DNA from: Serendipita indica DSM 11827
Lineage: Eukaryota > Basidiomycota > Agaricomycetes > Sebacinales > Serendipitaceae
Reading direction: 5' to 3'
DNA length: 64,000 nt
Assembly (NCBI GenBank): GCA_910890315.1
Contig: CAJVGD010000002.1
Location: forward strand, 310,001 to 374,000
A model generated the notes under the pieces. It did not search any database. It was not told the origin of the DNA and was given only the letters and a program-made list of their open reading frames with translations. Of the stretch, positions 15,413 to 45,478 are shown piece by piece (the stretch's first letter is position 1; each line of letters opens with the position of its first letter). The position numbers and the translations under genes were made by a program.

Positions 15413-17790
15413 ATGGATGAGGCACGGATCTTACTTATTGATTCATATGATAGCTTTACACATAAGTAAGTCTCTCATCGTGTCTCCTGTACACTTACTA
15501 ATCGTTGAACAGTCTAGCGGCTCTGTGCTGCCAGGCCATTCCACAGTCGCGAATTCACATCATTAAGAATGATGCACTGAGCATCCATCAACTCGTCCCC
15601 CACCTCCCCAAATTTGACGCTATTGTCGTGGGACCTGGTCCCGGTTCGCCTGCTCACCCAGCGGACATCGGGATCGTACGTGACCTCTGGAAACTCGAAG
15701 AGCATCTTTTGCCCATCTTCGGAGTATGCCTCGGCTTGCAAAGCCTCGCACTCGAATTTGGAGGCAAAGTGTCCCGTCTTCGGGTTGTCAAGCATGGTCA
15801 AATTTCCCCCATCGTGCACACCGGCTCGGATCTCTTTGCAGATGTCGGAGCGATAGAGGCCGTGCGATACCACTCGCTTCATGCCTCGTTAAACGACGGA
15901 GAACATCTTGAAGAGCTCGCATGGGCGAATGATGGCGAGGAAAATGGTCGAGTGATCATGGCCATCCGACACCGCAGCAAGCCGTATTGGGCGGTCCAGT
16001 ACCACCCAGAATCCGTTCGAACGTCTGGTGGAGGCCTCGAGGTCTTAAAGAACTTTTGGAGACTTTCAAATGAGTGGGAATCGCTCAGAGCGAGGAAAAG
16101 ATACAAGTGGGACGAAGAAATCGAGACGCTGGTCGGTCCAGCCTGGCCTTCCCTCTCCTTCTCCCTGCAGCGCGGCATGAATGTTCTTTCGAAAAAGATA
16201 CACGTGCAAACGCGGATAATCGATTCACCTTTGCTGAGTAGCGTCGAGGTTGCCGAGCATTTTGGCGCCACGGATGAGAATGCTCGACTGGTCCTCCTCG
16301 ATTCAGCGGCAAAACCAGGTCGTTTTTCGATCATAGGCAGTCTCATGACATCTTCTCGCCAATACACTCATTACACTCACGAAAATCACGTTTCGATAAC
16401 ATACAGCGGGACGACGGAGCAAATCCCACTCCGTGAGCTTGACATCTGGTCTTGGATGGAGAATCACATGCGCCCGTACGAGAACATTGTCGGTCACGAG
16501 GATGTGCCTTTCTGGGGTGGCTTCGTTGGCTATCTCAGCTACGAGCTCGGATGTCAGCACCTCGCGCCGCTTCCGACTCGCCGTGACAAGTCAGCACCTG
16601 CTCCTCGCGTGCACCCAGACCTCAATCTCGTCTTCGTTGAACGCAGTGTTGTATTGGACAAGGTCACGGGTCGAGCCTACGTCCAGTCCATCCTCCCAAA
16701 GGACGATGGGTGGATAAGCGACACTGTACGTTCCCTGAGAGAACTCGACGCGAGCCTGCGTTGTAGGGTGGGCTCGAAGGTGGTCTCTTCTGAGGAATGT
16801 CCGAGGCCCAAACCGTCCATCACGCTACCCAACCGGTCCCATTACTTGGCGAGTATCGAAACCGCCAAGGCGCATCTCGCTGCGGGTAATTCGTACGAAA
16901 TATGTCTGACTGCGCAAACGAGGGTTACTCTTGCCGTGCAGGATGTAAACCGGGATCGTAGTTCGTCTTGGGAAATGTACAAGCGTCTTCGCAAGCACAA
17001 TCCAGCACCCCATTCCGCATACCTTCGACTCAACCCTTCCACCGTGCTGTCATCGTCTCCCGAACGCTTCCTCTCGTTTAGTCGACCACCCAATCCGACC
17101 TATCAGCTACGACCGATCAAGGGCACTCTTCGCAAGGGACCAGACATCCAGCGAGCAGATGCCGAACGACACCTGGTAGGAAGTGTCAAAGAGGTTGCAG
17201 AGAACCTCATGATCGTCGACCTGATTCGCCACGACCTACACGGAGTGGTGGGCGAACAAGTGCACGTGTCGCAGTTTTGTGGAATCGAAGAATACGAGAC
17301 TGTATGGCAAATGGTCAGTGTCGTAGAGGGCCAGTCTTCCCCTTGTCGGTGTGACGAGCCCGGTGAGCGGAACAGCCAAGGATGGCAAGTCCTCCGTCAT
17401 TGTCTACCCCCCGGTAGTATGACGGGCGCACCGAAAAAACGTAGTGTTGAGATTCTGCGTGAGTTGGAGCGAGAGCCCCGGGGAATCTACTCTGGCGTGC
17501 TTGGGTACTGGGACATTGGGGGTGGGGGCGATTGGGCAGTGGTTATTCGAAGCTGCTTCAAGCATGAATCTCAGTCACGAGTTCCTAATGCCACCGAAAA
17601 CGAAGACCTTGGCGGTACCAAGCTTGGCCATCCTCCCTTGGAGGAGTGGTCAATAGGTGCTGGTGGGGCAATCACAGCACTATCAGATGCACAAGCCGAG
17701 TGGGAGGAAATGGTACTCAAATTGCAAAGTGTCCTCGGTGTTTTCAAGGCGAATCCGTCCCTGTCACCCCCACAAGGGCCGACGCTCTGA
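15413..17790 (+). CDS. Bifunctional aminodeoxychorismate (PABA) synthase
   Basis: Makes 4-amino-4-deoxychorismate from chorismate and glutamine for folate synthesis; it fuses bacterial PabA and PabB. A first exon (MDEARILLIDSYDSFTHN) is joined over a 47 bp intron to one long exon. The class I glutamine amidotransferase occupies residues ~1-200, with VGPGPGSP, the nucleophile Cys in FGVCLGLQS and the His-Glu pair in QYHPESV. The chorismate-binding domain fills the C-terminal half: PERFLSF, PIKGTLRKG, IVDLIRHDLHGVVG, GSMTGAPKKRSVEI and RGIYSGVLGYWD. The Lys in PIKGT is the residue that distinguishes aminodeoxychorismate synthases from anthranilate synthases (PIAGT), which supports this call over TrpE. 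The domain linker is a normal PabB N-lobe; nothing is missing. Confidence 0.94.
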
Positions 17791-33176: not shown

Positions 33177-34949
33177 CTACCCAATTGTAGGTGTACGATT
33201 CAGCTCGTGAGTATGGATATGAAGTGCGCCCGTGCGGCCTCTCTCCCGCCAATCGGCATCCTTCTGTATTTTGTAAGCACAACCTAGAGAGCTACCCTGG
33301 AGACTTACTCGTATTGTGAGTACGCGTTCGCCGTCTATCATACCGACGACACTTTCCCTGGGCAAGGACAACGTCGTGAGCGCGATAGAGAGTTCACCAG
33401 TCCAACCCTCTTCAACGCAACATCTAGTTTTGACTGGATTTGAATTGATGACCCGATATTGGTCCTGTTGCATTCGTTGTCTGATCTCGTCCTCGTCAAA
33501 AGGTGGTGCCAGGACAGGATCTCCCCTCGATGCCAATCTCGAGCGTACCCATGCTACCATGACAGGATTGACATCTGCAATAGTAAGTGCATAGTCATAT
33601 ATCCTGGTGTCATTGCCACCTGGACTGGCTTCATTCTCATCAAGCTGGGTTGAATGAAGAAGCAGGAAGCGGGAGCCATAGACGTGACACGAATAGTTAT
33701 TTGCTAAGCCTCCGTGAATGAAGAATGTCTCTTTCATCCAAAGTTTCCCCCCGACTACAGGTATCTCTTCGCCATTGGAACCCCGCGCCTCACTCTTCAC
33801 ACCATTACGGACCTTGAAGAGTGAACTAGCACGGGTGACCAGAGTGTAGCTCATGGATGAGCCGTGCATGTTCACGTCGATACAAACGACAATTGCTCGA
33901 TCCTCGAGGCGGGGATAAAAGGGGAGATGACCAAACTTGGTCTGAGATCCGCCACCGGGACTTCTAGGCAAGAATGATGGCGGGTCGATGCGGCAGGTGA
34001 TATTCTGCACCGGTTCCACCGTTCTTGGTAGATGGTATACTGCAAGGAGTGTAGGCTGAGATCTATCATCTCCGGAATGATGAAAACTGTAGATTTCAAA
34101 CTCGGGTGGCTCTCTCTGTCCGCGGACCAGGACGAAACGCGTATTGTCAAGGAAGAAGAAATCGTGTATTGGATCCTTGGGATCATGATCAGAGCGAGTA
34201 TGAAAAGTGCCGGTCTTCCAGTTGACGATGAAAAAGTGCCATTTGAGTGTGAGGAGGCCCACGAAGTCACCCATAATGTGGATGATAAAATGTTGGCGAC
34301 TGTCGCAATGATCTGACTGTATCCGAACCGGTCCATAGGATTGCTGATGACGGTATCCATCAGTCAGAGAGAGAAAACGCAGGATGATCCATGGCCGACT
34401 TTGGGGGCGTGAGTTCGCAGATACAGCACCGGAAAGATGAACCTACTCAAACGAGGACCGTGATTTCTCAACTGTGACAAGAAGATCATCGTGAGGGTTC
34501 AAAGTAAAATCCGTCAACCAATATTCAAAGTCCGGAAGTGACCACGATGCGCCTGGGTGCAAAAGAGATGGAAGTCGGCATACGTTGATGCCTGACTTCT
34601 GGGAGTTGCCATCTTCGCAGTGCCTTTCCTGAGCATATACTCCACCTTGTAGCTCATATGCACGCGTACCGCCATTGATTGGAATCCAGGCTTTGGTCAA
34701 GAGCGAACCAGTCTTGAAGCTAGTTTCGATGCTCTTCAGGTAATTTAATCTGTCCTGAATCGGTTTCCCACTCGATCCTACGTCCTCGCACCCAGCCATG
34801 TCAAGCTGGAGAGCGTACTGCACACGAGGATCCGTTTCGATCAGATGGTAGAACGTCTTTGAGACTTGCTTCAGTCCAAGGAGAGTATTACAAGGAAGAT
34901 TGCAAAGGATGCGAATCCATATCTCGACTGGCAACGAAGCCTGAGACAT
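33177..34949 (-). CDS. F-box protein, cluster member B
   Basis: Starts at MSQASLPVEIWIRILCNLP (F-box). Exon 1 ends SRSSFD over an intron with donor GTAGGT, joining to RPWIILRFLSLTDGY; a last intron near 33,266-33,310 adds a short basic tail ending PTIG. The body repeats the cluster pattern: MGDFVGLLTLKWHFFIVNWKTG, FFLDNTRFVLVRGQREPPEFEIYSF, LLAVYHLPR, WMKETFFIHGG, VYGSRFLLLHS and VVGMIDGERVLTI. No disabling change was seen. An upstream in-frame Met (35,054) exists, but the chosen start matches the position of Met in the sister genes. Probably an SCF substrate receptor of unknown target. Confidence 0.78.
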
Positions 34950-35415
34950 TGGCCAGAAACAAGTTAACCTCTCACGCAACTTCATTCTTATGGCGAGTGG
35001 TGGGAATCGATAGTCAAGAACGCACAGACGTAATCTGAAATAAATGATGGTCAATGTTTTCTAGCTCAATTCACCACCTTTATGGAAACTTTGAGCTATG
35101 GGAGAATGAGGCAACAACTCAGAACATGCGTGGTAGGTCTATCCTCCTATATCACTACAAATCCCTCAATCTCTAGGATGTTTGACAATTCTACTCTGCG
35201 CAGTTCCTGTAGTTGACGGTGGAGGCGTCAGGTCCAAGGGAATCGACTCCCTATTGATGACGTGAAATAACTTCCATGAGAACAAATTCAAAGTAGGATT
35301 CCCCTGGAGCAGTTCGCCCTTCACCATCTTCCAAATGTCAGCCACAGCAACTCATCAGATATAGAGCTAGCACCATGAATATCATTCGCAACATTCATAC
35401 ATCAGGAAATGCAAC
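34950..35415. other. Intergenic spacer between F-box members B and C
   Basis: About 470 bp with no recognisable gene. It should contain the promoter of member B and the 3' region of member C; nothing repeat-like was seen. Confidence 0.35.
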
Positions 35416-37147
35416 TTAAATTATGTGTATAAATGTCGATTGTGCATAAAGCATCCTCGGACCATATATCGCCTTGTGTCTGTACTCATCAGAATCATCA
35501 TAAAGCACTAATTTCAAACTTACCCGCAGCATCAGCAAGCGTTCTCCGTCAATCATCGCGACAACACGTGAACTGTCAGCCTGGGTAAGATGTGGGAGAG
35601 ATGTGAGCGCGATAGGGAGTCCACCAATCCAGCCCCCGTCAATATCAGGGTAGGTCTTGACTGGCTTCGACTCGATGATTCGATATTGGCTCCACTCGTG
35701 TGGTTGCTCCCTTGATGCTAACTGGGCGCGCACCCATGCTACCATTGCAGGATTGACATTTGCAATGGTCACCACGTTGTCAAGTGACCTAGTTCCTGGG
35801 TTGTGCAGTTTCCCCTTGTCATCTAGCTCCGTTGAATGAAGAAGTAGGAAACGAGAGCCATAGATAAAGCATTCATAGTTGCTCGTCATGCCTCCACGGG
35901 AGAGGAACGTTTCCTGCATCCAACACTTACCCTCGACGACGGGTATCTCTTGTCTATCCAAACCCCGCTCCTCAATCTTTGCTCCATCGTGGGTATTGAA
36001 AAGGGAACTAGCACGGAAGACCAAAGTGTATCCTATGGGTAAACCATCCTCAATCACCGTGAGACGCACGACAATCGCGCGGTCTTCAAGATGAGGATGG
36101 AATGGAAGACGCCTAAATCTGGTCTGGACTTTGCTCTCGGGATCGTTTCGAGAACAGAACGGTGGCGGGTCGCTGCGGCAGACGATATTATATAGGGATC
36201 CCGCCATTCTGGGAAGATGGTATACCGCGATCAGCGCAGGCTGGGTTCCATTACCCCCAGAGGGGGAGAATTGGTAGATCTCGAGTTCGGGTGGTGTCCT
36301 TTGCCCGCGAGCCAAGACGAAATGAGTATCGTCGAGGAAGAAAAAGCTATAGACCGGATCCCTCGCGTCGTACTCAAAGAAGGCATAGAATTTGCCAGTC
36401 TTCCAGTTCACGATGAGGAAATGCCACCTTAGAGTAAGCAGGCCCACAAAGTCACCCATGGCGGTGATGAAGAAACCGTTGTTAATGGCCTGTCCCCTCG
36501 ATCCTGACTGTATCAAAACTGATTTGCAGGATTGGCAATGAGGGCTTCCGTCAGTTAGAGAAAGGAATCGTAGCATGATTGAGCGGTCACTGTAGGCCAT
36601 TAGCTTATCAGGAATACCTAGTACGAAGATCAGCTCACTCTGGCGACCCATGAGACGTTTCTTCCACGGTAACGAGTAGATCATCATAGGGATTCAAGGT
36701 AAAATCGTTGATCGGAATCGCAAAGTTTGGTAAACTCCATGAGGCGCCGGGGTATAAAAGTGATGGGAGTTGATGTACATCTACTTTTGATGTTCGAAAG
36801 CTATCTTCTCCGCATTCCCTGCCTTGGACATATACGCCACCCTGCAGATCGTACGCACCCATAGCGTCATTGACTACACTTCGGGCTCTGCCCGGAAAAA
36901 GCCCAGTCTTGAAGCTAGATTCGATGCTCTTAAGACTACCTATCCTTTCTGACAGCGTTTTGGGGTGGGGCCCTATGTCCTCATAGCCAGCCATACTCAG
37001 GAGTGTTGCGTACTGCACATATGGATCTGTTTCGATCAGGCGGCAAAATTTCTTTGAGACTTGCTTCATACGAAGGAGAGTACCCCAGGAAATATGGCAA
37101 AGTATGCGAATCCATATCTCAACTGGTAAAGAATCGAATGAGAACAT
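35416..37147 (-). CDS. F-box protein, cluster member C
   Basis: F-box at MFSFDSLPVEIWIRILCHIS. Exon 1 ends TSHGSPD, joined over an intron (GTGAGC...ACAG, about 36,570-36,640) to DRSIMLRFLSLTDGSPHC. Body motifs: MGDFVGLLTLRWHFLIVNWKTG, FVLARGQRTPPELEIYQF, LIAVYHLPRMAG, WMQETFLSRGG, CFIYGSRFLLLHS. The last intron (about 35,483-35,527) follows RLLMLR and yields a short tail ending TFIHII. Closest to member B by eye (many shared 10-residue blocks), so B and C look like a recent tandem duplication. Upstream, its frame is open right through from member D. Confidence 0.78.
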
Positions 37148-37284
37148 CTCGGCCGGGAGCAAGTGGTAAAGTGACCCAACCTCACACTCAGTCAAGGAGT
37201 CACATAGGCATGACGATGAGGAATGAAATTCTATCTGACATGGACTGAGATATGTGTGAGATCGTCTGGCTGAGTGGGATCGCT

Positions 37285-38944
37285 CTAGAGAACCGTGAGC
37301 TGGGAGTGAGACAGAGCCCAAGTGGCAACTCACACTATGTACGGTGATTATACGTTCACCATCCATCATACTCCCAACAATATATTCCACTGGACTATGT
37401 TCAATTTTCCTCCAGGAGATAGGGAGATCTCCAACCCAATCCTCGGACACAATGTCTCCTGCACTGACGCGAATTGACCGTTTAACCACCCACCCAGCGT
37501 CCAATGGGCCAAATTCGTCGAAAAAGGCGCTTTTTGTTGTGGAATTGGCCTGAACCATCGCAACAAAGGAGGGATTACAATCAAGGAGGTACAATCCTCT
37601 TGACGTCGTGCCGGCGTTTGACTGAGATTGCTGGTATACCATCCGTGACCCATACGTGAAGAAGGGTTTGTAGTTGTCCGAGGGTAATTCCCCGAAATAT
37701 GTTTCGTGCATCCAGCACGATCCACTGACCACAGGGATGTGGTCACGCCATTCGGTGACTCCTGTGACCTCGTCTCGAAGGAGAGTTTCGGCTCGAAATA
37801 TCAAAGCATAAGCCACGGGATCCTCCAAATTGGGATCCTGTATTACCATATTTATCCACAGGGCTCGATCCTCCAGGCGGGGTGAAAATGGAAGGGGTGT
37901 AAACACTGTGGATATACTGTTATCGTTTCTATACATACCAAACGGTGGAGGGTCACAGTGGCAACTGATATACAAAGGAGCCCTCGTTAAGGCAGGTAAT
38001 TGGTAGATGGCGTGAGGTGTGGGGGGAACAGCACCGAGTTCTCTTGGATCAAAGCTGTAGACTATCAACTCCATTATTTCTTGGTCTGTTTTCAGGATCG
38101 CGAAGCGTGCGTTATGTAGAAATATTACGTCTCTCACTTCGTCGTGCCATCTCACAAGACTTTGCCCAGTCTTCCAGTTGAGGATTGTGAAGTACCATCT
38201 GCCTGCGAGTAGGCATACTAGATCCCCGATGATTATGATCACGTAGAATTCCGCAGGAATGTCGCCGTCGAGTTGACCCTGGAGGACAAACTCTGCACAA
38301 GACTGAGGATGTGGCCTGCCATCACTGAGAGACAGGAAACGGAGAACCGTTAGAGCCTCACTGGAAATGGTGTCAGCGCTTTAGAATCCTCCAAAGGTGA
38401 CTCACCCGTTGAACGGTAACGTCTCCTCTACAGTGACGAGTAGGTCGTTGTGCGGGCTTGACGTAAAATCCCTTATGGGATACTTGAAGTCCGGTAGGAT
38501 CCACGAGCTGCCGAGGGGGTGGAGGGCTGAGGGCAGACGGTGAACTGTCGCGCCAAAGGTATACAGCTCCATGCCTTGTTCTTCAGATGCTCTCCCTTCT
38601 ACGTAAAATCCATCCCGTAGATCACAAGAGGCGCATTGACCGTCGAATGCCGCGTTCATCACGAGCTTGATCGGTACAACAGAAGGAAATTTGGCCGCGC
38701 GAAATGGTCTCTCGATGCGATCTAGAAGCTCTATCCTCTCCTTGACTGAGATTTCATAATCCACGTTGTTTTGCTCATATCCAGCGATACCCAGTCGGAT
38801 CTGATACTCTACAGGACTACTCTGCAAAAGCCGAAGGAATGCTTTCGAGACTCTTTTCGAGTGGATGAGGGTCTTCCATGAAACAAGAATTAAGATCTGT
38901 ATGCAGACTTCGGGAGGTAATGACAAAAAGGTGCTATGTGCCAT
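37285..38944 (-). CDS. F-box protein, cluster member D
   Basis: F-box at MAHSTFLSLPPEVCIQILILVS. An intron near 38,345-38,405 joins LPFNG to LTVLRFLSLSDGRPHPQSC. Body: IIIGDLVCLLAGRWYFTILNWKTG, FAILKTDQEIMELIVYSFD, AIYQLPAL, WMHETYFGELPSDN, FTYGSRMVYQQS, and VGSMMDGERIITVHS. With the GTGAGT donor after VHS and an acceptor ending CCCAG, the gene ends four codons later (LTVL, stop at 37,285-37,287), 137 bp before the start of member C. Without that splice the frame stays open into member C. Resembles the broken member E more than B or C. Confidence 0.75.
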
Positions 38945-40570: not shown

Positions 40571-40616
40571 TTCTCAGTTGGACTATCAGATCCTCGGGTG
40601 TCAGGAGACATAGCCA
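40446..40616 (+). pseudogene. F-box N-terminal fragment inside the left arm
   Basis: MSKLSFLTLPPELRIHTL followed by SWRALLQLKQVSHAFLQLVESS is a clear F-box helix set, but the frame stops after ~57 codons and no body follows. It lies within the left inverted-repeat arm, on the strand opposite to the neighbouring F-box genes. A truncated duplicate, not an active gene. Confidence 0.75.
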
Positions 40617-40997
40617 TTCACTCGACAACAGGATGTGTCCCAGATGCGAGTTACGGAAAACCAAGTTGATTCTTCTTCGTTTTGACTCCCAATATCGATG
40701 GTTTACTCAGGTCTGGATCGGGAATAGGCATCGCTTCGTCAGTCCTTTGCGAAGACGATTTGGAAACACAACGAATGGCCTTGAAGCGTGAGCGAGGACT
40801 CGACATATCTCTTATTCAATATGGTAGGGAGCAATGGCCCGTCACCTGCTATGTAGCCTCGCCTCTGATTGCCGTTTACCAGCAAGAAGAACTGGCAGGG
40901 TGAGCTATCGTCTTTCTCAGCGCCATTAGCTCTGTAGATAAATAGCCACAAGAGAGACATTGGCTCACCTGTCATCCTCCCTGCAATCTCGCGGCTG

Positions 40998-41083
40998 TTT
41001 GATGCCAGGCCGCCTACAAACAACCAGCTCTTAAATTAGTTAAACTCCCATTTGACGCCAGGCCACCTAGCGAACAACCAGCT
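40998..41083. repeat. Imperfect direct repeat just upstream of the NLR gene
   Basis: Two ~32 bp units, 40,998-41,029 and 41,051-41,083, share TTTGA-GCCAGGCC-CCTA and AACAACCAGCT with a few differences. Spacing between unit starts is 53 bp; the second ends 28 bp before the NLR start codon. They could be promoter elements or a duplication footprint; nothing more is visible. Confidence 0.6.
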
Positions 41084-41110: not shown

Positions 41111-44100
41111 ATGTCAGGTCTTCACTCAGCGTTGACGCGCGATCCAGGTGTCTCCAAATTGTACTCTCGACCCAGCGACAAACCAACGCCTATTCGCGAT
41201 TCAAATCTCAATAAACCATTGCCCCCTAGAATTAGATCAAAGAAGGATGAGCTTGAATTTCTTGAAGTATTTCCCGGAACTGACCCTGTTGTCGAGTGAG
41301 TGGTCTCATCGTCTAATCCAAACGCATTTGGGCTGACTGGAGAAGCATTATTGCCATTCATGGCTTAGATGGCCACAGAGAGAATACATGGACGGCACAA
41401 AATGGTGTCTTGTGGCTTCGAGATCTCCTATCTGCTGACATACCCAACGCCCGTATCCTCGTGTACGGCTACGATGCCGACACTCGGAGCCGAGAGTGTG
41501 TCTCAACGCAGACGATCTATCAACACGCGGACAAATTTATCAAATCTCTGTCACGGCAGCGCACTGATAGTCCACGTGTGAGCAGACAACCACTCTGTGC
41601 TGGACCCTGCTCAAACTCTAACAGCGACCGATCATTTTCGTCGCGCACAGCCTGGGAGGTATTGTGCTCAAACAAGTATTCCCATACCTTGTATTCGGGC
41701 GCGTTCTGATGCACTTCTAGGCCCTCATCCTTTGTCACGTTCAGACTCTGGGCTCGATAAACCACCTACGGGATATATTGGTGTCCACACATGCCATTCT
41801 TTTCTTCGGGACGCCTCACTCCGGTGTCAAAGGCGTTGAACTACTTAAAACTATGAACAGACTTTTGTCGGTGTACTTGAACACAACAGAGGCTATACTC
41901 CGGAATCTCACGGAGAATTCTCCAGAGCTAGAAAACATACAAAATCTATTCAGTTCGGCGAGCGAGGAGATTGAAATCGCTTTGTTCTACGAAGTATATC
42001 CTACGCCACTCGTTGGTGGTACAAAACAACTTGTGAGGACGAAAAGATTCGATTTTTCCCAATTCTGACGCTGGTAGATTGTGCCGTACCGCTCAGCAGT
42101 TGGCGCCCGGGATCGTCGTGCATCCGAAGAGGCATTGAACGCTGATCACTGTGAGATGGTCAAGTTTCAGGACAAGAAAAGCCCTAATTACGTGACGGTT
42201 CTCTCGTGTCTACGGCGGCATATCGAAGGAGCTATGACCGCGGTGACGAGAAAATGGTCCGCAGAGGATGCTCATCGAGGTCTGTCGAGTCCTAATATGA
42301 ATCATTCAATTACTAACGATAATCAGCTCTGGCAAGAAAACGATACCTACCGCCGCATGACGTTCTCAGGCCAACGCCTCGTCTAGAAGTGTCGAGGATC
42401 TACGTAGATAGGCCCGCACTTCATTCCCTTATCACGCATCACCTGCGTCCTACTCGTCGGGTGCGGCATCAGCCACGGTGTATACTGTATGGAATTGGAG
42501 GGTCAGGCAAAACTCAGTTGGCCACAAATTGGATTCGGGACCACGAAAGCAGGTATAGACTGTGCGATTGTTTTGCGAACTTCTAATTGTTGCCTAGTTT
42601 CACTCGGGTGATTTTCGTCGACGCCTCCAGCCAAACTCAATTGGAAAAAGACCTGGAGTTATCAATCCGCTCTATCGGCCCAGAGTATAGAGAGATGACC
42701 TGGAAGGATGCGGTTGCCTACCTCGACGGCAAAGATAGAGGCTGGCTGCTCTTCTTTGACAATGCTGATTCGCCAAGCCTTGATCTGCGTCCGTATCTTC
42801 CTGCTTCCATTCACGGAGCAGTCCTAATTACGACAAGGAATCGTATGTGCACCGACTACGCTCCCGATAGCGCCGTTTCTGTGGGTAATATGGAAGAGAG
42901 CGAGGCAGTCGAACTCCTTCATCGAATTGCCAATATTACACCCACATCCGATACCGAGTCCTGCGCAATTGTCAGAGAGCTAGGAGTGTTGCCGCTGGCG
43001 ATTGCGCAGGCCGGAGTGTATATTCGGAGGACAAGGCGCCTTGATACATACCTGGACACTTTTCGTAAACACCGGGGCCAAATTCTACGCCAGCGGTCAG
43101 ATATTGGCACCGAATACACCTCCTCAACCTACGCCGCGTTCGATCTATCGTTTGACCACCTCCCTGCAAAGACGCAGGAATTCCTGAAGCTCTGCGCGTT
43201 TCTTCATCATTCTCTCATCCCCATCGCGCTCTTTGAACACTCGACATCGTCCGGATTTACCACTTATACCGTTCTGAAAAGCTGCCTTCCTCCAGAGGGT
43301 GACAAGGCTTTGGTCTTTCACCTTCAGAGTATGTTTGGCTCGACATGGGATATAGATTCGTTTCAAAAAGTTATTGAATCAGCCTCCAGCACGTCCTTGA
43401 TCGAGGTTTCGAGTGACGGACTATTTTATACCGTCCATCCCCTCCTTCAGGTATATATCAAGGGGCGTCTTAACGAAGAAGATAACCAGCACTATATGAA
43501 AATGGCAAGACAACTCCTACTTGGTGCTATCCGGCCAGTCGAAGGTAGCAATGCCCAGCTTCGGCAACTACTTCCCCATGCCCACAATATACCCCGATCT
43601 GTGCAATCGGAACATGTGGCTCATGCTTTGGCATTTCGCGAGCTTTACGAGTCCTTAGGTGACCCGAAGTCGTGTCGAGAGCTACTGGAGTCTGCCCTTC
43701 ACCAAGTTCGACAACTTAAAGGTGAAGAGCATGAAGACTCAATATGGGTTATGGGCAAACTTGCCCTTGATCTACTTCGCTGTCATCGATTGCAAGAGGC
43801 GGAGGAGATGCATCGCGAAGTACTCCGTTTACGACTCAAGATTTTTGGAGGACGGCATTTGGACACCATCAAGGCAATGAATGGCCTCTCAATCAGCTTG
43901 AATTCCCGTGGTCAATTGGAGGAAGCGGAAAAGCTGCAAAAAGAGGCTCTTGCTTTGCAGCTCGAGTTGCTTGGAGGGCGACATCTAGATACTATCTCAA
44001 CAATGCATTCCCTCGCCAGCACTCTGCGCGATCGTGGTCAACTGGAAGAAGCGGAAAAGTTGAAACAAGAAGTCCTTGCTCTGCGCCTCGAGATACTGGG

Positions 44101-45478
44101 TAGAAGACATCTGGACACCATCCTAGCAATGACAAGCCTTGCAGGTACCTTGGGTCTCCGAGGTCGATTGGACGAGGCAGAAAGGATGGAACGAGAAGCA
44201 CTCGATCTGCAAATTGAGATCTACGGAGAGCGACATCCACGCACGATCTCCCTAATAAGCAACCTTGCATGCACCTTGTTTGGCCTTGGGCGATTAGACG
44301 AGGCAGAAAAGATGGAACGAGAGGTGATCATTGCAGAAATTGAGATCCTGGGACAGCGGCATCCAGACACCATCTCTGCAATGCACAATCTTGGTGCTAC
44401 ATTGTACAAGCGTGGTCGATTGGATGAAGCAGAGACAATACAGCGAGAGGCCCTCACTCTGCAGCTTGAGCTGTTTGGAAGGCGACATCTAGATACAATC
44501 TCAGCAATGGCTGCCCTCGCCTACACCCTGTGCGATCGCGGTCAACTGGACGAAGCAGACAGATTGCGACAAGAGGTGCTTGCTCTGCGCCTGGAGATAC
44601 TTGGCGAAAGTCACCTAGACACTATCTCGGCAATGAAAAATCTCGCAGACATCTTGATTCGCCGCGGTCAATTGGACGAGGCAGAAAAGGTGGAACGGAG
44701 GTTACTCGCCCTGCAGCTCGAGATCCTCGGACGTCAGCATTCGGACACCATATCAACAATGGGAAACCTCGGGGTCACATTGCGTGACCGCGGTCAATTC
44801 CATGAAGCGGAGAGACTGCAACAACAGGTGCTTGCTCTGCTGCTCGAGAAACATGGAGAACTGCATCCAAAAACTGTCCCGACAATGGAGAACCTCGCAA
44901 TAATCTTCCGTGACCTTGATGAACTTGAGGATGCAGAAGACATGGATCGAAAGGTACTCGCTGTGCAGCTCAAAGTCCTTGGAGTGGAACACTTGGACAC
45001 CATCTCCGCGAAGGATAACCTTGCAGAGACCTTGCGTGACCGTGGTAAATTCGAAGAAGCGGAAAAGCTGAAACGAGAGGTGCTCGCTCTGCGGCTTGAG
45101 ATTCTTGGTGGCGAACATTTAGACACGATATCGACAATGCACCGTCTTGCCGCAACGTTGAAAGACAGCGGTAAATTGGGAGAGGCAGAAAAGATAGAAC
45201 GAGAAGTACTCAGCCTCCGACTTAAGATCCAAGGCATGCGGCACCCAGATACCCTTAACGCCTCTCTATACCTTTCCCACATATTGCACGAAACTGGTCA
45301 ACTCGCGGAAGCTGCAATACGTCTTCAGGAGACCATGGAGCTGCGTGTGGCAGTGTTTGGTGAGGACGACCCACTCACAATGGCAGCAAAGGAGCTTCTA
45401 GCACTCGTAATCTCTCAGAAATCCCATAGTACTCGTCCCCGATTTCGCTCCCGATTCCTTTCTCGCTTATTTTCATGA
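41111..45478 (+). CDS. NLR-type STAND protein: SesB-like hydrolase, NB-ARC, TPR array
   Basis: A complete fungal NOD-like receptor gene. After five short introns the N-terminal ~300 residues form a SesB-like alpha/beta hydrolase: VESIIAIHGLDGHRENTW, ARILVYGYDAD, the nucleophile elbow FVAHSLGGIVLKQA, and LFFGTPHSGVKG. The NB-ARC follows with P-loop CILYGIGGSGKTQLA (near 42,480), Walker B GWLLFFDNAD, sensor GAVLITTRNR, the GLPL-like LGVLPLAIAQAG and a VHP near the MHD position (LFYTVHPLLQ). Thirteen TPR units fill the C-terminus. In such fungal proteins the repeats sense a ligand and the NB-ARC oligomerises to trigger the effector; roles in allorecognition or defence are known for relatives, inferred here. 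No disabling change seen. A broken F-box gene and inverted repeats flank it. Confidence 0.9.
43731..45380 (+). repeat. Array of thirteen 126-bp (42-residue) TPR units
   Basis: Inside the NLR gene. Units follow a common pattern: HLDTISAMxxLAxTLRDRGQLDEAEKLxREVLALRLEILG with variation; I count thirteen, the first and last being the most diverged. All units are exactly 42 residues, with no linker. Kinesin-light-chain-type TPR. Neighbouring units are similar but not identical, so recent homogenisation is partial. Confidence 0.85.

Follow-up and report, generated by a model that had tools for sequence, protein, structure and literature searches.

The window analyzed here, a 64,000-nucleotide stretch of the Serendipita indica DSM 11827 genome (C2:310001-374000; 24.7 Mb in 55 contigs), carries on its forward strand a gene that joins a SesB-like alpha/beta-hydrolase, an NB-ARC domain, and a tetratricopeptide repeat (TPR) array, the parts of a fungal NOD-like receptor (NLR; Table 1). 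The G+C content of the window is 0.507, and the published contig average for Piriformospora (Serendipita) indica is 52.3% (PMC3192844, PMC4986451, PMC10197012). Short introns, a rich NLR set, and one DUF6534 match above its cut-off, this family being a basidiomycete marker, agree with such a host, and an RPB2 fragment looks agaricomycete-like. The coordinates given for the gene in the initial annotation agree with its start, stop, and open spliced frame: the closest in-frame stop upstream of the ATG lies at 41000, with no ATG between. Where five introns had been proposed, we find six, all with canonical GT-AG borders. When 25 paralog loci were aligned with splicing, with protein similarity and GT-AG as the sole scoring criteria and no intron sites supplied, introns of 42-57 nucleotides fell at the shared positions. 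The comparative support for the predicted seven-exon model is thus good, at a level below that of RNA sequencing.

A Pfam profile search of the translation places all three parts above their cut-offs, in keeping with the earlier description of a complete gene with an SLG elbow, a GIGGSGKT P-loop, and a regular TPR array, each of which is present. DUF676 matches residues 64-198 (21.1 bits vs a cut-off of 20.3), NB-ARC matches residues 381-545 (26.0 vs 23.5), and TPR_10 reaches 354 bits over 13 stretches. The SesB head is identified here through the DUF676 profile, not through a SesB profile as such; DUF676 was found in 8/8 scanned family members. The nucleophile elbow reads VAHSLGGIVLKQ, with Ser148 encoded by AGC, and Ser148, Asp272, and His284 form the presumed catalytic triad, with roles assigned by conservation and not by structure. 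Behind the P-loop, we take WLLFFDNAD to be Walker-B-like, TTRN sensor-like, LGVLPLA GLPL-like, and VHP MHD-like. A Protein Data Bank (PDB) search with NB-ARC returned one weak match, a designed protein, and the TPR arrays are similar to structurally characterized kinesin light chain TPRs as well as to a designed TPR based on a Podospora anserina protein.

Table 1. The receptor gene, its parts, and neighboring features, in window coordinates
Feature	Position	Strand	Details
Whole gene	41111-45478	+	7 exons, 6 introns, 1362 residues; spliced frame without stop; intron sites common to paralogs
Exons	41111-41295, 41346-41577, 41625-41675, 41721-42032, 42078-42279, 42327-42552, 42598-45478	+	
Intron 1	41296-41345	+	50 nucleotides, phase 2; same residue and phase in 19/25 paralog loci
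Intron 2	41578-41624	+	47 nucleotides, phase 0; same residue and phase in 23/25 paralog loci
Intron 3	41676-41720	+	45 nucleotides, phase 0; same residue and phase in 24/25 paralog loci
Intron 4	42033-42077	+	45 nucleotides, phase 0; same residue and phase in 20/25 paralog loci
Intron 5	42280-42326	+	47 nucleotides, phase 1; same residue and phase in 20/25 paralog loci
Intron 6	42553-42597	+	45 nucleotides, phase 2; same residue and phase in 25/25 paralog loci
SesB-like alpha/beta-hydrolase domain	41258-42334	+	About residues 50-330; DUF676 match above cut-off
Nucleophile elbow AHSLGG	41643-41660	+	Ser148 codon AGC at 41649-41651
Asp272, presumed catalytic acid	42111-42113	+	Kept in 24/25 rows regardless of nucleophile; putative role
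His284, presumed catalytic base	42147-42149	+	Kept in 24/25 rows; putative role
NB-ARC P-loop GIGGSGKT	42491-42514	+	Residues 383-390, within the NB-ARC Pfam match 381-545
Motifs WLLFFDNAD, TTRN, LGVLPLA, VHP	42743-43450	+	Residues 452-687; read from the sequence
Array of 13 TPRs	43730-45367	+	42 residues each, gapless, residues 781-1326; TPR_10 match and repeat analysis
Remnant of exon 1 from another SesB-type gene	40609-40806	-	Head-to-head with the receptor gene; tblastn vs paralog L032, E 8e-12; interrupted by stops
Two open reading frames with F-box matches	34446-35060, 36638-38380	-	Near and upstream of the NLR gene
PABA-synthase-like open reading frame	15502-17787	+	Single frame fusing GATase, Anth_synt_I_N, and chorismate-binding domains

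The initial annotation had singled out this one gene, which belongs to a large family. With its last exon as query, a whole-genome protein search (79 rows; 47/177 candidates scored, so that family counts are lower bounds) yielded at least 46 NB-ARC-TPR loci, the window gene included; contigs C12, C10, and C50 carry 18, 7, and 5 of them. The window gene stands apart from these clusters, and its closest relative on C2 among the matches listed is more than 1.1 Mb away. SesB exons lie upstream in 44 of the at least 46 loci, 41 of them recognized by script and 3 assigned by hand (C10, C13, L050). One copy, L044 (C12:289k), is broken, with 4 stops in its model. As to copy number, the earlier proviso that homologues might reveal one universal, invariant single-copy gene does not hold: the loci are many, clustered, and variable, and at least one of them is clearly broken. 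SesB domains also occur elsewhere: about 48 of 91 SesB loci do not adjoin the NB-ARC-TPR family (best 150 of 187 rows; contigs C1, C10, C32, C40, and others), and a SesB-NB-ARC locus outside the 46, L006 in the C12:1147319 region, has Arg at the nucleophile elbow (AHRVGG).

Within the family, the residue at the nucleophile elbow is split. The census covers 45 of the at least 46 loci (C12:726743 was left out) and counts 11 Ser, the window gene among them, 24 Asp, 5 Asn, 1 Gly, and 4 that could not be resolved. The 26 modelled loci, i.e., 25 sisters and the window gene, contribute 6 Ser, 14 Asp, 4 Asn, 1 Gly, and the unresolved L042; the 19 further loci, read at the elbow only, contribute 5 Ser, 10 Asp, 1 Asn, and 3 unresolved. 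Of the 25 modelled rows, 24 retain Asp272 and 24 retain His284, Asp- and Asn-type heads included, and among the 14 modelled Asp rows the acid and the base are each kept in 13. Two further positions follow the nucleophile. Residue 156 is Gln in all six Ser rows and Trp in 13/14 Asp and 3/4 Asn rows, and residue 283 is Asp in all six Ser rows and Asn in 10/14 Asp rows. Elbow codons are GAY for Asp and AGY for Ser; AAY (Asn) and GGY (Gly) are each one base from both, so the route between Ser and Asp may have been stepwise. We found no description of such a split within one NLR family in the literature searched (titles and abstract openings).

Selection on the SesB head was estimated as the ratio of nonsynonymous to synonymous divergence (omega, from dN and dS) by NG86, with figures reported from 25 pairs that are not independent of one another. 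Intact pairs with dS of 0.29-1.13 give an omega of 0.19-0.24 for Asp-Asp (n = 6), 0.14-0.15 for Asn-Asn (n = 2), and 0.11-0.18 for Ser-Ser (n = 4), and very close pairs (dS <0.1) give 0.25-0.36. The low values of the measured Asp and Asn pairs show that purifying selection preserves these heads, with slightly less constraint than on Ser heads. The contrast case is the broken L044, with an omega of 0.78-0.81 against its kin, though its model is poor; we take its decay, together with a SesB omega of about 0.8, to reflect birth-and-death evolution within the clusters. The window gene differs from its five modelled Ser-type sisters by a SesB dN of 0.11-0.19 and a dS of 1.23-1.48, i.e., its head is under purifying selection, although dS is high.

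Trees were built from 22 of the 26 modelled rows (L042, L044, L046, and L050 excluded; L048 and L052 retained, with 2 stops and 1 stop in their models). The SesB tree unites the Ser rows in a single clade (100/100) with a long stem of 0.36; the Asn row L047 falls outside the Asp set, and the three other Asn rows fall inside it. In the NB-ARC tree, five of the six Ser rows form a clade (99/97) on a stem of 0.065, with L052 apart. By the two stems, the head has diverged more than the switch. Head swapping between lineages is possible. Effector swapping between NB-ARC lineages is not claimed, as an NB-ARC tree that holds the six Ser rows together is not rejected (p 0.094).

The predicted sensor varies mainly on one helix face. 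We collected 264 repeats of 42 residues from 25 of the 26 loci (L051 has none, and the repeats of L029 and L030 run past the fetched stretch), and entropy exceeds 3 bits only at repeat positions 6, 9, 13, 16, and 17. Variable positions cluster on one face of helix A, both in the 254 distinct repeats (p 0.0001) and in the 13 repeats of the window gene (p 0.0024); helix B has no such face bias (p 0.93 and 0.74, respectively). Among 110 close repeat pairs, each within one gene (17 loci), the five hypervariable positions have an omega of 1.27 (0.87-1.90), vs 0.46 (0.40-0.52) for the other positions. Since the data that defined these positions also served to test them, the estimate was repeated on split gene sets, one half used to choose positions and the other to test them; the median omega was 1.28, and 185 of the 200 overlapping splits exceeded 1. 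These estimates are suggestive of diversifying selection on the helix A face. In a sesB-like/NB-ARC/TPR gene of P. anserina, the same variability pattern maps to the concave TPR face (PMC4986451). Sixteen of the 26 loci contain repeat pairs at ≥85% identity, and the window gene contains none, its top pair reaching 0.76. Such internal repeat conservation at ≥85% is a trait of a fraction of fungal NLRs and is not required of all. With a mean repeat identity of 0.48, the window array ranks fourth lowest among the 24 arrays with more than 2 repeats; it is not homogenized, and its specificity is probably settled, with no reshuffling at present.

The surroundings of the gene had been described as a conserved neighborhood, which is true in part. 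Among the 20 open reading frames scanned in the window are matches to CBM1, PHM7_cyt, TTI1, GATase-chorismate-binding, Opi1, two F-box, RhoGAP, and HAM1-like. The TTI1, para-aminobenzoate (PABA)-synthase-like, Opi1, RhoGAP, and HAM1-like frames would fit the description; the two F-box frames near the gene and the decayed family exon directly upstream do not. The latter aligns with L032 at 52% identity over 67 columns, the alignment fading below 40609, and a reversed-sequence control gave a best match of E 0.23. Its start codon faces that of the window gene at a distance of about 300 bases, so two genes once stood here head-to-head, one of them now decayed. Unmatched open reading frames of like size lie between and beside the two F-box frames.

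The architecture had been proposed as an undescribed system, and here the literature leads elsewhere: sesB-like/NB-ARC/TPR proteins are known in ascomycetes (PMC4986451, PMC12258605). The P. anserina system, as described, has the same three parts and variable positions in its TPR helices (PMC4986451); it differs in being an ascomycete system for which strain polymorphism is shown. The model for mechanism is PLP-1 of Neurospora crassa, a patatin-NB-ARC-TPR protein that kills on allorecognition and requires both its lipase domain and its P-loop (PMC12881547). It shares with the window gene a lipase-type N-terminus on NB-ARC and TPR, but its head is a patatin phospholipase and its partner, SEC-9, is known, whereas the head here is a SesB alpha/beta-hydrolase. 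P. indica itself, with a genome of about 25 Mb, is credited with 272-274 NLRs and with expanded NB-ARC, NACHT, TPR, F-box, and CBM1 families, and the available portions of these accounts do not single out a SesB-NB-ARC-TPR family or elbow substitutions (PMC3192844, PMC4986451, PMC10197012). The window protein also scores 611.5 bits against NCBIfam NF040586 (FxSxx-COOH system TPR protein; cut-off 300), with its best stretch, 755-1081, in the TPR part; NF040586 is a bacterial equivalog, and many TPR arrays could reach the score on repeats alone. Pattern scans derived from the SesB alignment confirmed no SesB relative in bacterial/archaeal or viral contigs.

Taken together, the window gene is an intact, serine-type member of a large family of the sesB-like/NB-ARC/TPR kind and encodes an NLR-type receptor (a signal transduction ATPase with numerous domains, STAND) that probably senses through its TPRs, oligomerizes, and activates a serine hydrolase to bring about cell death. 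The parts are observed, and each step that follows takes PLP-1 and other NLRs as its model (PMC12881547). The concave TPR face would bind a cognate protein or an altered self protein; binding would free the NB-ARC domain, which would swap ADP for ATP and let the protein oligomerize; the clustered SesB heads might then hydrolyze lipids or other esters through Ser148, and the cell or hyphal compartment would die or be sealed off. We infer a role in recognition or defense from the class of the gene, and its class does not separate allorecognition from anti-bacterial or antiviral defense or from symbiosis. Several results weigh against the reading of a sensing serine hydrolase. The DUF676 score barely exceeds the Pfam cut-off, and PDB searches with the SesB domain returned no credible solved relative. 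Folded alone, the TPR array reached a predicted local distance difference test score (pLDDT) of 53.7, a low confidence, and the model served for helix register only. At the hypervariable sites, the bootstrap interval of omega (0.87-1.90) includes 1; the window gene supplies none of the 110 close repeat pairs, and its own repeat pairs, all taken together, give an omega of 0.87 there, their synonymous differences being close to saturated.

The elbow census bears directly on whether the head is an enzyme at all. With 34 of the 45 loci read showing no Ser, the 4 unresolved ones among them, and with Asp- and Asn-type heads still conserved (eight intact pairs of matching type, with an omega of 0.14-0.24 and a dS of 0.33-1.13), the SesB head could be mainly a scaffold or partner-binding module, the serine of the window gene being incidental. 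We regard this as unlikely, as a pure scaffold would not need the Asp272 and His284 that are kept in 24/25 rows across types, and Ser, Gln156, and Asp283 are retained jointly in all six modelled Ser-type rows. A decaying copy, retained by chance, might be suspected at a site with a second-gene relic directly upstream and in a family where at least one sister (L044) is clearly broken; the 1362-codon open frame, the six GT-AG introns, the intact state of every motif, and the low dN relative to dS against the sisters make this very improbable.

A different question is what the receptor would serve. Many NLR-rich fungi are mycorrhizal or endophytic, and Laccaria NLR genes are upregulated in symbiosis (PMC10197012), so that a part in development or in plant symbiosis signaling, in place of defense or allorecognition, has some appeal for a gene whose TPR array is not homogenized. 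The large clustered family, the hypervariable helix face, the homogenized sister arrays, and the broken copy are a better fit to a fast-evolving recognition repertoire, and we consider the symbiotic or developmental role improbable. For the family as a whole, we tentatively suggest, as a possibility that we hold to be less likely than not, that the SesB heads fall into two working classes, a Ser minority with the window gene and an Asp/Asn majority in which acid and base are kept and residue 156 changes from Gln to Trp. Asp-type heads might be enzymes of a new chemistry with an Asp nucleophile, or they might be catalytically silent, sensing and co-assembling partners while the Ser-type receptors execute. 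Judged by residue pattern, the former would resemble the Asp-nucleophile alpha/beta-hydrolases such as epoxide hydrolase and haloalkane dehalogenase, where an Asp elbow goes with a kept acid and base (PMC7034887); the likeness concerns the Asp-type sisters only, the window gene being of the Ser type.

The sesB-like/NB-ARC/TPR family around the window gene is more interesting than the gene alone. SesB-like heads are described as almost absent from basidiomycete NLRs (PMC9815663), and 44 of at least 46 loci with such a head in a basidiomycete contrast with that account. S. indica, a harmless root endophyte kept in laboratory culture, may be an exception, or the heads may simply be under-annotated in basidiomycetes, as DUF676 scores at the Pfam cut-off suggest. 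The split of the nucleophile among sisters makes two matters testable within one family, and practicably so in this fungus: catalysis by fungal NLR heads, and the pairing of active with silent partners.

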